From NCBI GenBank assembly GCA_028692955.1, contig JAQUWH010000002.1, forward strand, positions 1-64,000: a DNA stretch of 64,000 nucleotides. Direction: 5' to 3'. The stretch is from Clostridia bacterium. Lineage in GTDB: Bacteria > Bacillota > Clostridia > TANB77 > CAG-465. The notes beneath the pieces are model-generated. The model had not been told where the DNA came from and searched no databases. It saw only the letters and a list, made by a program, of their open reading frames with translations. Position numbers and translations under genes: made by a program. Shown here piece after piece: positions 1 through 33,448 of the stretch (its first letter is position 1; the number at the start of each line of letters is the position of its first letter).

Positions 1-2339
1 AAACTAGCTGTTATTTTATTTCCTGCTGCGTCTGTTGCTTCTGCATATACGGTTGCATTTTTATCCACTGTAAGTTCTGTTGCATTCGCCGTTGTAAGTC
101 CATTAATTCCTGCCATTTTGTTATAGTTTAAGTTTGTACCATATTTTATTGTAACTTTAACCGATTGGTTTGTCCATGAAGTAATATTTGGGGTTAACGT
201 TATTTTATTTTCAGGTAAAGAGCTATTTCCAACGATAAACTTTTGTGACTTAGTAGGATTTGGCGAAATGGCATTTCCCGCATTATCTTCTGCTTTTACA
301 TATAAATACCATGTTCCCTCTGTTGCATTTTCAAATACTATTTCTGCACCATTTGTGTATAGTTCATAGCCTGTTGTTGGTGCTGCTTCGCTTGTACTCC
401 AAACATATAACAGGCTATTGTTATTGATTCCACTTCCACCTACATCATTTACTAAAGTACGTGCCTTTAACTTGGCTTTATTTTGCCCTTCTGGAATAAC
501 ATAGTTTCCTCCATTTGGTTCTATCTTAATCGTAGGTGCTATTTTATCAATATTGGTAATATTGATACTATCTCTTTTAACATTTCCAGCTACATCTTTT
601 GCATACACATAGTATAATCCATTCTCACTGACTGAAAGGTTCACACTGGTTTCTGTTGTTGTACTAGTAATCGGAGTCCATCCAGGTGCATTAGCTCCTA
701 AGCTTGGATCTTTACTTATCATACAACCCACTAATCCACTTAAATTATCTTGCATCACTATGGTTACGATAACCATTTGATTCGTCGCTGCCGTTGGTGT
801 TTGCGATACATTCTTAATCACTGGATCTATTTTATCAATATTAGTAATACTAATACTTCTATGACTTCCTGTTTGTCCATTTTTATCTTTATATCTTACA
901 TAGATTGTCGTGTTTTCTGGAATGTTTTCTATATGGACTGCACCTTTTCCAATTTGAGTTACATCCTTCCAGTTATTTCCATCTTCACTGTATTGACCTA
1001 TTAATCCTGGTACTTCTGGATATGTTAACGTTAATTTAACATTCTGATTGGTCCAACCAGATGGTTCCAATTTTACTTGTACATCTTTTTCTGCAGTTAT
1101 TTTATCTACTACTTTTGTATCAACAAACTCTTTTTTGTTTCCAACATTATCTTCTATTTCTACTATTACTTCATACGATCTTCCTTGTATCAAGTTTAAA
1201 AATTCGAATTTTGGTTCTACATCTTTTGGGGTTTGTGTATCTTTTAATACTCCATCTAAATAGAATTTATAATGTTTAATTCCACTTAAATTATCCTTTG
1301 AATTACTTACTTCTGCTATGATGCTATTCGTTGTTGGTTCAATCGATACTGCTGCTGTTGGGGCCTCTTTATCGATTAAAATATTATGAGTCTCCACTTT
1401 TGTATTTGTACCATCTGTAGTCTTAAGTGTCAACTGTGTAATTCCTTGAATCGTTAACATTTTTTCAATTGTTTGTGGAGCAGATGTATTTGCTCCTGTT
1501 AGCTCATATGTGGTGTTCCCTGTTTTACTTTGATAGATACCAACATAAATATCATTACTTGTCCACTTATCATCTACATAGACTGGTCCTGTCTTACTCG
1601 TTTCTCTAATATCTGCTTTACCAAGTAATAACTCTTTTGTAACTAATCTTTCGACACCTGATTCCTTTTTACTTTCACCACTTGATGCTTCTACTTTTAC
1701 TTCATAGATTGTATTATCTGTCATACCTTTAATCTGGTAAGTAGTATCATAAGAGACTTCATTACTCCAGGTTGCTCCATTATCTTTACTATACTTGTAA
1801 GTATACTTAATTCCTGAAATAGCATCAATTCCTACTTCTACTCTTGCTCCATTGGTCGTTACATTACTTACAAAGATACCTTCAATATTTGGCACTGTAA
1901 TATTGCCTGGTATAATATAACCCATTTCAACGGCAAGTTTCTTCGTATGTTCATCTTCTCCTGCATAAATCATACCATCTTTACTTGCTACAAATCCTTG
2001 TGATAAATACTCATCTGGCACTAATCCCTTAAAATCTTCTTCTGATATTTTACTCTTATCACCCAGTTTATCATGCATTAAGTCTGATAATCTTGCTTCT
2101 TGACTATTTAACATGGCCATCATGTCGGTTTTTAAAGTGACATCATTTGCTATATTAAATGTATCTTGTCTATTCAAAATTAATATAGTAGCAGTGGCTA
2201 ATATGATCATAATGACAATCGTAATAACTAGAACCAGTAAACTAATTCCATGAGTTTTATGATATCCATTTTCTTGCTTTATATTTTTAATATGTTTTTC
2301 ACATAAATTATTTTCTTTTTCTAAGAGTTTTTTATCCAT
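1..2339 (-). CDS. Large surface protein with pseudopilin-like leader and Ig/FN3-like repeats (3' end outside window)
   Basis: The reading frame is open from an ATG at 2339 (GGAGGC Shine-Dalgarno 6-7 bases upstream) to the window edge, about 780 residues. After about 30 charged residues comes a Gly followed by a hydrophobic segment (ISLLVLVITIVIMIILA, residues 32-48). This looks like a prepilin leader but has Val where type IV pilins have Glu5. The rest is a chain of fibronectin-III/bacterial Ig-like modules, with repeated motifs such as GWTNQNVKLTL and SWTNQSVKVTI and Asp/Asn-rich DNLSG segments typical of extracellular adhesive stalks. The same leader recurs at 34849 and 60548. I infer a membrane-tethered, cell-surface adhesin-like stalk. 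Its ligand and C-terminal domain cannot be seen. Confidence 0.8.
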   Translation of the reverse strand, partial: MDKKLLEKENNLCEKHIKNIKQENGYHKTHGISLLVLVITIVIMIILATATILILNRQDTFNIANDVTLKTDMMAMLNSQEARLSDLMHDKLGDKSKISEEDFKGLVPDEYLSQGFVASKDGMIYAGEDEHTKKLAVEMGYIIPGNITVPNIEGIFVSNVTTNGARVEVGIDAISGIKYTYKYSKDNGATWSNEVSYDTTYQIKGMTDNTIYEVKVEASSGESKKESGVERLVTKELLLGKADIRETSKTGPVYVDDKWTSNDIYVGIYQSKTGNTTYELTGANTSAPQTIEKMLTIQGITQLTLKTTDGTNTKVETHNILIDKEAPTAAVSIEPTTNSIIAEVSNSKDNLSGIKHYKFYLDGVLKDTQTPKDVEPKFEFLNLIQGRSYEVIVEIEDNVGNKKEFVDTKVVDKITAEKDVQVKLEPSGWTNQNVKLTLTYPEVPGLIGQYSEDGNNWKDVTQIGKGAVHIENIPENTTIYVRYKDKNGQTGSHRSISITNIDKIDPVIKNVSQTPTAATNQMVIVTIVMQDNLSGLVGCMISKDPSLGANAPGWTPITSTTTETSVNLSVSENGLYYVYAKDVAGNVKRDSINITNIDKIAPTIKIEPNGGNYVIPEGQNKAKLKARTLVNDVGGSGINNNSLLYVWSTSEAAPTTGYELYTNGAEIVFENATEGTWYLYVKAEDNAGNAISPNPTKSQKFIVGNSSLPENKITLTPNITSWTNQSVKVTIKYGTNLNYNKMAGINGLTTANATELTVDKNATVYAEATDAAGNKITAS

Positions 2340-11216: not shown

Positions 11217-11245
11217 ATAATACTACATAATATACATTTTTTCAA
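11217..11245 (-). promoter_or_regulatory. Sigma-A-type promoter for rlmN
   Basis: TTGAAA (11240-11245), 17-base spacer, TATTAT (11217-11222), 20 bases before the rlmN start and downstream of the terminator at 11266-11308. Confidence 0.75.
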
Positions 11246-11265: not shown

Positions 11266-11594
11266 AGAAAAACGACTAAACAGAGATAATTTTGTTATCT
11301 CTGTTTAGCCACATCTAGAAATTGTAGTTTTCTATACTCTCAAATACTAGTTGAGAGCATAGATGGTGGAAATATCAGCTATAATACTGATGTGTACTTT
11401 CAATAATATATATTAAAAATATATATTAACATCAATGTACACCTCCATTGGAGATTTCCATATATATATAATATATCAACTCTAATCCTTATGATTAAAG
11501 TGATATTTCCAAAAGACAATATATCAATACTAACGAAAAATTTCGCCTATAACAAAATAACAAATTAGTCATCTTATCGTTTTATAAACTACAT
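11266..11594 (-). ncRNA. Unassigned structured RNA, about 330 nt, with its own promoter and terminator
   Basis: A consensus promoter (11600-11628) and a rho-independent terminator (perfect 14-bp stem 11276-11289/11295-11308 followed by T5) bracket a gene-free stretch rich in inverted repeats. Helices found by eye: an 11-bp long-range pairing of 11501-11511 with 11367-11377; a 12-bp hairpin 11332-11343/11351-11362; 9 bp at 11404-11412/11420-11428; 6 bp 11392-11397/11437-11442; and local hairpins at about 11473-11506 and 11374-11391 that compete with the long-range helix. I see no tmRNA, RNase P, SRP, T-box or typical 6S core motifs. It occupies the place where rsmB sits in B. subtilis (between fmt and rlmN). 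Function unknown. It could be a trans-acting RNA or a leader that ends before rlmN. Confidence 0.72.
11400..11432 (-). CDS. Possible 10-residue leader-type ORF inside the structured RNA
   Basis: ATG at 11432 preceded by GGAGG with 9 bases spacing, reading MLIYIFNIYY then TGA. The coding part overlaps an AU-rich hairpin (11404-11428). Such a short hydrophobic/aromatic ORF could be a leader peptide or chance. The good ribosome site is the only support. Confidence 0.3.
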   Translation of the reverse strand: MLIYIFNIYY

Positions 11595-11599
11595 CCAAT

Positions 11600-11628
11600 A
11601 TTTTATATCACAATTCATATTTTGTCAA
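11600..11628 (-). promoter_or_regulatory. Consensus promoter of the structured RNA
   Basis: TTGACA (11623-11628), 17-base spacer, TAAAAT (11600-11605). Start of transcription is expected near 11594. No ribosome site or long ORF follows. Confidence 0.8.
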
Positions 11629-11662
11629 GCATTTGTGTTGTTTTTCTTGTAAATTTAATTTC

Positions 11663-11753: not shown

Positions 11754-12128
11754 TTAAATACTATTCCACACCTTATTTAGTGCTTTTAACGTTTCAATTC
11801 CAATTGCACCATCCTTGCAATCTTCCTTACTGTAACCAACAAGCTTATGATACAATTCTCCTTTTTTGGTTGTAATTACTTCATCTTCGATATAGAACTT
11901 AAGAAAAGCATCTAACGTTTTTTTGTTTTCATCTATATGATGCCCTAAAACTTCTCCTGCTAATGATATCAAATGAATACCAGAAAATCTGCTCTCTACC
12001 ATCTCGTGTGATGAAACTAAATAGCCATTCCATATAATCTTTGGTAATTCAACAAGTTCTCCCTCTTTAGAACCCAAAATGACCTTATTAGTCGGTGTGA
12101 TAAACGCACAAGTAATACAAGCCCTCAT
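11754..12128 (-). CDS. Conserved-looking 124-aa protein of unknown function
   Basis: Not recognised. 124 residues with no signal peptide or membrane helix. The N-terminus MRACITCAFITP has two Cys separated by two residues, and the rest is mixed alpha/beta with charged surfaces. A strong ribosome site (AGGAGG, 8 bases before ATG) and a dedicated downstream terminator support a real gene. A TGATATAAT extended -10 at about 12180 may drive it. It sits between fmt and the structured RNA, in the place rsmB occupies in B. subtilis, but shows no methyltransferase motifs. Confidence 0.7.
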   Translation of the reverse strand: MRACITCAFITPTNKVILGSKEGELVELPKIIWNGYLVSSHEMVESRFSGIHLISLAGEVLGHHIDENKKTLDAFLKFYIEDEVITTKKGELYHKLVGYSKEDCKDGAIGIETLKALNKVWNSI

Positions 12129-33146: not shown

Positions 33147-33220
33147 TATCAATAAGAGTGCATATAACAGACTCTATAGGATAGTAACGAATTACAATTA
33201 CTAATGTTGTATCATAAAAT

Positions 33221-33271
33221 ACCCCCTAACGTTAAACATTTATTTTTGTCTAACATTAGGGGTTCACTTCA
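33221..33271. mobile_element. 51-bp inverted-repeat element resembling paired IS3-type ends; also acts as a hairpin terminator
   Basis: Read on the minus strand it starts TGAAGTGAACCCC then AATGTTAGACAAAAA, which matches the start at 55164 in 25 of 29 positions by my count. The other side (ACCCCCTAACGTTAAACA) is the inverted partner. The 12-bp stem 33223-33234/33251-33262 lies between two convergent genes and could terminate both. Confidence 0.45.
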
Positions 33272-33391
33272 ATGTTACACAAAATACTTAACATTTGGAG
33301 GTATATTTGTATTTTTTAACTAAATCGTATTATATTTTCTAAAAATAGAATAAACATAACTCAAGATTTTAAATCTTACCTTAAGCGTATT

Positions 33392-33420
33392 GTAAGATAC
33401 TTCGTTCTTTTCTATCTTAC
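33392..33420. repeat. 8-bp inverted repeat downstream of the FGE-like gene
   Basis: GTAAGATA (33392-33399) and TATCTTAC (33413-33420), 13-base loop, 29 bases past the stop at 33449. There is no T-run, so it is not an obvious terminator. Confidence 0.5.
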
Positions 33421-33448
33421 TGCATAGTTGGATAAGCAGTGTACAGTA

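Follow-up and report, generated by a model that had tools for sequence, protein, structure and literature searches.

The stretch that precedes rlmN on the minus strand of this small, A+T-rich genome raises the question of whether it is an RNA gene in its own right, a leader of rlmN or an element of some other kind. All positions refer to the window, by which we mean the whole 64,000-nucleotide stretch of DNA that was analysed. Position 1 of the candidate RNA was set at 11594, the probable start as judged from promoter spacing.

The putative transcription unit and its neighbours

The signals that delimit the unit, together with those of the adjacent genes, are as follows.

11754..12128, minus strand: gene for a 124-aa protein of no known family, a neighbour outside the RNA unit
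11698-11671, minus strand: terminator-like hairpin of the 124-aa gene, upstream of the RNA promoter
11637-11656, minus strand: A-rich tract upstream of the RNA promoter
11600..11628, minus strand: promoter TTGACA-17-TAAAAT, 11/12 consensus positions
11266..11312, minus strand: intrinsic terminator followed by a T-rich tail, 16-18 pairs, -21.7 kcal/mol
11217..11245, minus strand: rlmN's own promoter TTGAAA-17-TATTAT, past the RNA terminator and conserved in the genus

The consensus promoter of the original prediction (TTGACA, 17 bases, TAAAAT) was found at 11628-11600 on the minus strand and is the best of the region, ranking top of 27 promoter-like sites within 4 kb. Since 26.9 +/- 6.2 such sites are expected by chance, it is the quality of the match and not its presence that carries weight. 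The stretch from promoter to terminator measures 329 nt, in line with the predicted length of about 330 nt, and contains no long open reading frame; the longest minus-strand frame in its body has 39 codons and a TTG start. The perfect 14-bp terminator that had been described was confirmed as the core of the hairpin (11308-11295 with 11289-11276), which extends over 11312-11272, ahead of the T-rich tail, and has 16-18 pairs altogether. A terminator-like hairpin with a nearly identical stem, AAACAGAGATAA...TCTCTGTTTT, also occurs elsewhere in the same genome (L022, G000:C8:16320-16354). At the level of sequence, the unit thus has the attributes by which an independent non-coding RNA gene is recognised, namely its own promoter and terminator and the lack of a long open reading frame.

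On the same strand, the unit is preceded by fmt (PF00551, PF02911) and then the 124-aa gene, and is followed by rlmN and then the genes for a PP2C phosphatase and a PASTA kinase. The 124-aa protein gave no match in Pfam, PADLOC or NCBIfam and insignificant ones in PHROG and PDB, and no relative was found in phage, viral or genome-contig searches. In the closest congener (L060), a relative of this protein is encoded directly after fmt and is 29% identical, compared with 88% identity for rlmN, suggesting that the 124-aa gene evolves fast relative to rlmN. A different 291-aa gene comes next in that congener and rlmN lies elsewhere, not adjacent to fmt, so that the RNA occupies a site at which the gene order of the two genomes differs. 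In the listed congeners that do have fmt beside rlmN, the spacer mostly holds a gene of about 101 aa, identified as MazG-like by Pfam in one congener, or another small open reading frame. The proposal that the RNA replaces rsmB is not supported in this genus, given these spacers and the presence of the 124-aa gene in the window; it is a comparison with the gene order of other bacteria. At the edge of the window, an open frame of 779 codons (3-2339, minus strand) runs off the end; by eye, it has a hydrophobic, pilin-like N-terminus and apparent repeated surface-type domains.

Relation to rlmN

A promoter, a structured region, a terminator and then a gene 70 bases on is the usual layout of a leader, and the stretch could accordingly be read as a long regulatory leader of rlmN, similar to a riboswitch or an attenuator, in which the terminator decides on read-through. 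However, rlmN has its own promoter past the terminator. Across 20 aligned congeneric upstream regions, the window's own included, the TTGA of its -35 box is the same in all and most positions of the -10 region vary little or not at all, and the promoter is kept in congeners that lack the RNA. This makes rlmN probably independent of read-through from the RNA, and supports the original view that the RNA is a separate unit with the rlmN promoter lying after its terminator. Moreover, the best partners of the two terminator arms inside the RNA are no better than those in shuffled sequences (equally good in 57% and 54% of shuffles, respectively), so that an attenuator switch is not indicated, and no riboswitch or T-box matches the stretch. 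Judged by title and abstract, none of the four papers found in a literature search on small RNAs, attenuation and leader peptides at rlmN deals with a regulatory RNA at this gene. Overall, we regard the leader as very unlikely.

Predicted structure of the candidate RNA

The 329-nt stretch, folded as RNA with its terminator, has a predicted free energy of -102 kcal/mol (z -8.5), and the body without the terminator one of -80.2 kcal/mol, for which different rounds of shuffling gave z values between -6.5 and -7.1. After regression on G+C, the body ranks first for stability among 283-nt stretches sampled from both strands of the 64-kb window, and it also tops all scanned intergenic stretches of the window. 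The predicted elements, in order from the 5' end of the RNA, are listed below.

11323..11593, minus strand: closing helix P1, 8 bp, UGUAGUUU (11593-11586) with AAACUACA (11330-11323), from the fold and base-pair probabilities
11551..11578, minus strand: hairpin A, 11 bp, predicted fold, z -5.1
11532..11547, minus strand: hairpin B, 6 bp, predicted fold
11473..11506, minus strand: hairpin D, 14 bp with one bulge, predicted fold, z -5.0
11367..11460, minus strand: cloverleaf, closing stem and three arms, -27.6 kcal/mol, z -4.2
11400..11446, minus strand: possible mini-ORF of 10 codons, MLIYIFNIYY, from the spacing of Shine-Dalgarno sequence and ATG
11331..11363, minus strand: hairpin E, 13 bp (one G-U) with a 7-nt loop, z -6.2

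In this fold, P1 encloses hairpins A, B and D, the cloverleaf and hairpin E, and the terminator comes after it. Among shuffled sequences, 0.4% can join the first 12 bases of the body to its last 25 by a helix of at least 8 pairs. The stability of the cloverleaf was matched by 0/200 shuffles. Its closing stem is GGAAAU/AUUUCC, its first arm CUCC-aau-GGAG and its other arms GUGUAC...GUACAC, which has an AU-rich top, and AUCAG...CUGAU, meeting in a four-way junction with zero unpaired bases as predicted. The original prediction gave at least six helices; about ten are predicted here. Another structured intergenic stretch (z -5.2) lies at 33147-33430 on the minus strand of the window. It contains the 16-bp hairpin CCCCTAATGTTA...TAACGTTAGGGG and matched nothing in Rfam at E-values up to 1.

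The AU-rich arm of the cloverleaf is occupied by the possible mini-ORF, in which the strong Shine-Dalgarno sequence GGAGGTG (11446-11440) lies 7 bases before the ATG (11432) and the stop codon ends at 11400. The unit could therefore be read as a dual-function or peptide-coding small RNA, from which MLIYIFNIYY, a leader-type or regulatory peptide, would be translated once the cloverleaf opens. GGAGG followed by a spaced start and at least 8 codons is present in 0.9% of shuffles, and the Shine-Dalgarno bases are predicted to be 81-99% paired in the cloverleaf, as is the case with regulated open reading frames. However, ten A+T-rich codons in an AU-rich arm come cheaply by chance, GGAG is also accounted for as a strand of a stem, and no homologue was found in which codon conservation could be judged. 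Translation of the peptide is considered improbable.

Known families and homologues

In a search of Rfam 15 (4227 families), nothing reached the gathering cut-off over the unit, in agreement with the original statement that no core of a known RNA class was visible by eye, for which this search was the check proposed. Below threshold, the best matches were to RsaF, which reached 24 of 60 bits on the opposite strand, and to mir-335, which fell on the terminator. Elsewhere in the genome, RNase P RNA is found at G000:C3:87646-87975 (259.5 bits) and a 6S candidate at G000:C3:126893-127053, whose 45.5 bits are just below the cut-off of 46.4. With these present elsewhere and no family match over the unit, its identification as RNase P or 6S RNA was rejected.

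With BLAST, the unit gave short, chance-like matches and no homologue in 57 relatives, in 385 genomes from the order and in 36 from the family. The RNA was not found in any other genome searched, 27 congeners among them. The short matches in relatives have E-values of 1e-2 to 2e-5. Eleven from the search of the 57 relatives were inspected together with the best one order-wide; all are isolated and A+T-rich and lack the neighbouring helices, and the order-wide best falls within coding sequence. Searches of phages and plasmids gave two short matches each and again no homologue, and no second copy of the unit was found in its own genome by BLAST.

With a covariance model based on a single sequence of the 149-nt 3' domain, the source sequence alone was recovered in the order (~390 genomes). 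In 391 genomes of the class the model gave two matches (25.1 and 23.9 bits), which span 68-77 bases of the 149-position model and are presumed to be single hairpins. Pattern scans gave eleven matches to the cloverleaf in genome contigs and five to hairpin D in viral sequences, these last being near-identical copies of a single stretch; the best of all of them scored 11.4 bits with the covariance model and they were discarded. The remaining viral pattern scans gave zero matches. Both a one-sequence model and fixed patterns reach fairly close relatives only, and divergent homologues of the RNA may therefore exist.

Base composition and the possibility of a DNA element

The G+C content of the body is 25%, compared with 29% for the window, and its z is near -7. 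In the same genome, RNase P RNA (42%), the 6S candidate (34%) and tRNA-Leu (57%) are richer in G+C, and their z values are modest, from -1.3 to -2.3. In A+T-rich genomes, structured RNAs usually stand out by their higher G+C content (PMC8632094). The low G+C content of the body is thus unlike that of the known RNAs of this genome, and is a real warning. Additionally, an imperfect inverted repeat of 20 bp (16/20) flanks exactly the RNA unit, as happens in ~0.3% of shuffles.

These observations are consistent with a hairpin-rich, A+T-rich DNA element that has a chance promoter-like site and a terminator and is devoid of RNA function, such as the remnant of a mobile element or palindromic filler at a point of rearrangement. 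Such an element would fit the restriction to a single lineage, with relatives not found in searches, and the position at a site where gene order departs from that of the closest congener. However, the two halves of the inverted repeat are the A-tract before the promoter and the T-tail of the terminator, and its 13-mer recurs exactly at a third place in the genome, where it forms the tail of a terminator-like hairpin unrelated to this one. Neither a second genomic copy nor, by eye, a flanking target duplication was found, and a good promoter and terminator share one orientation. A mobile element of the MITE type was rejected, the inverted repeat being only imperfect, the copy single and no target duplication visible. 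With the low G+C content, the very low z and the inverted repeat weighed in this way, the DNA element is judged unlikely, while keeping an appreciable share of the probability.

A candidate lineage-specific RNA gene

We prefer to read the stretch as a non-coding RNA gene that is independent and lineage-specific, with a structured product that would act in trans instead of serving rlmN as a leader; from the sequence, we consider the chances of this to be about even. RNA polymerase would start at ~11594 and stop at ~11266, giving an RNA of ~325 nt, which would fold into one closed, multi-branched domain followed by the terminator hairpin. In trans, such a stable RNA may serve as a regulator or an RNA-protein scaffold.

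An RNA gene is supported by what appears to be a clean unit, set between the terminator-like hairpin of the upstream gene and the rlmN promoter. The predicted fold, far beyond that of shuffles, the putative joining of the ends of the body by P1 and the lack of a fitting known family also argue for it. Against it stand the lack of a homologue in the searched genomes and a G+C content below that of the window. Moreover, the long, near-perfect predicted stems with few internal loops would resemble palindromic DNA equally well. The stretch is either a young RNA gene or hairpin-rich DNA that merely resembles one. A more specific proposal, that it represents a new class of multi-branched, independent RNA with a junction-perfect cloverleaf hiding a 10-codon open reading frame and a recent origin in one reduced-genome lineage, is possible but rather doubtful.

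If the unit is transcribed and functional, a large, highly structured RNA gene was born, or has diverged beyond recognition, within one genus. This would have implications for the rate at which new structured RNAs arise in bacteria, as comparative searches detect only RNAs that are common to several species and private RNAs are therefore systematically missed.

Comparison with known structured RNAs

Riboswitches, T-boxes and leader-peptide attenuators share with this locus the layout of structured leader, terminator and gene, but differ in that rlmN keeps its own conserved promoter and that no antiterminator pairing beyond chance is present. The large ornate RNAs GOLLD, ROOL and OLE are multi-branched and non-coding like the candidate RNA, although none was matched here. 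Many GOLLD members exceed 800 nt, and both GOLLD and ROOL are carried by phages and prophages, in many cases close to tRNA islands (PMC12286853). The raiA motif RNA is likewise a stand-alone structured RNA of a similar size order (205 nt). However, it is widespread, with 4,875 sequences, whereas the candidate RNA was found in one genome only and has no Rfam match even at a permissive threshold. 6S RNA is encoded by a stand-alone non-coding RNA gene and folds into a single long hairpin that is bulged at its centre. The candidate RNA would likewise stand alone, but in place of that single hairpin it is predicted to be multi-branched.
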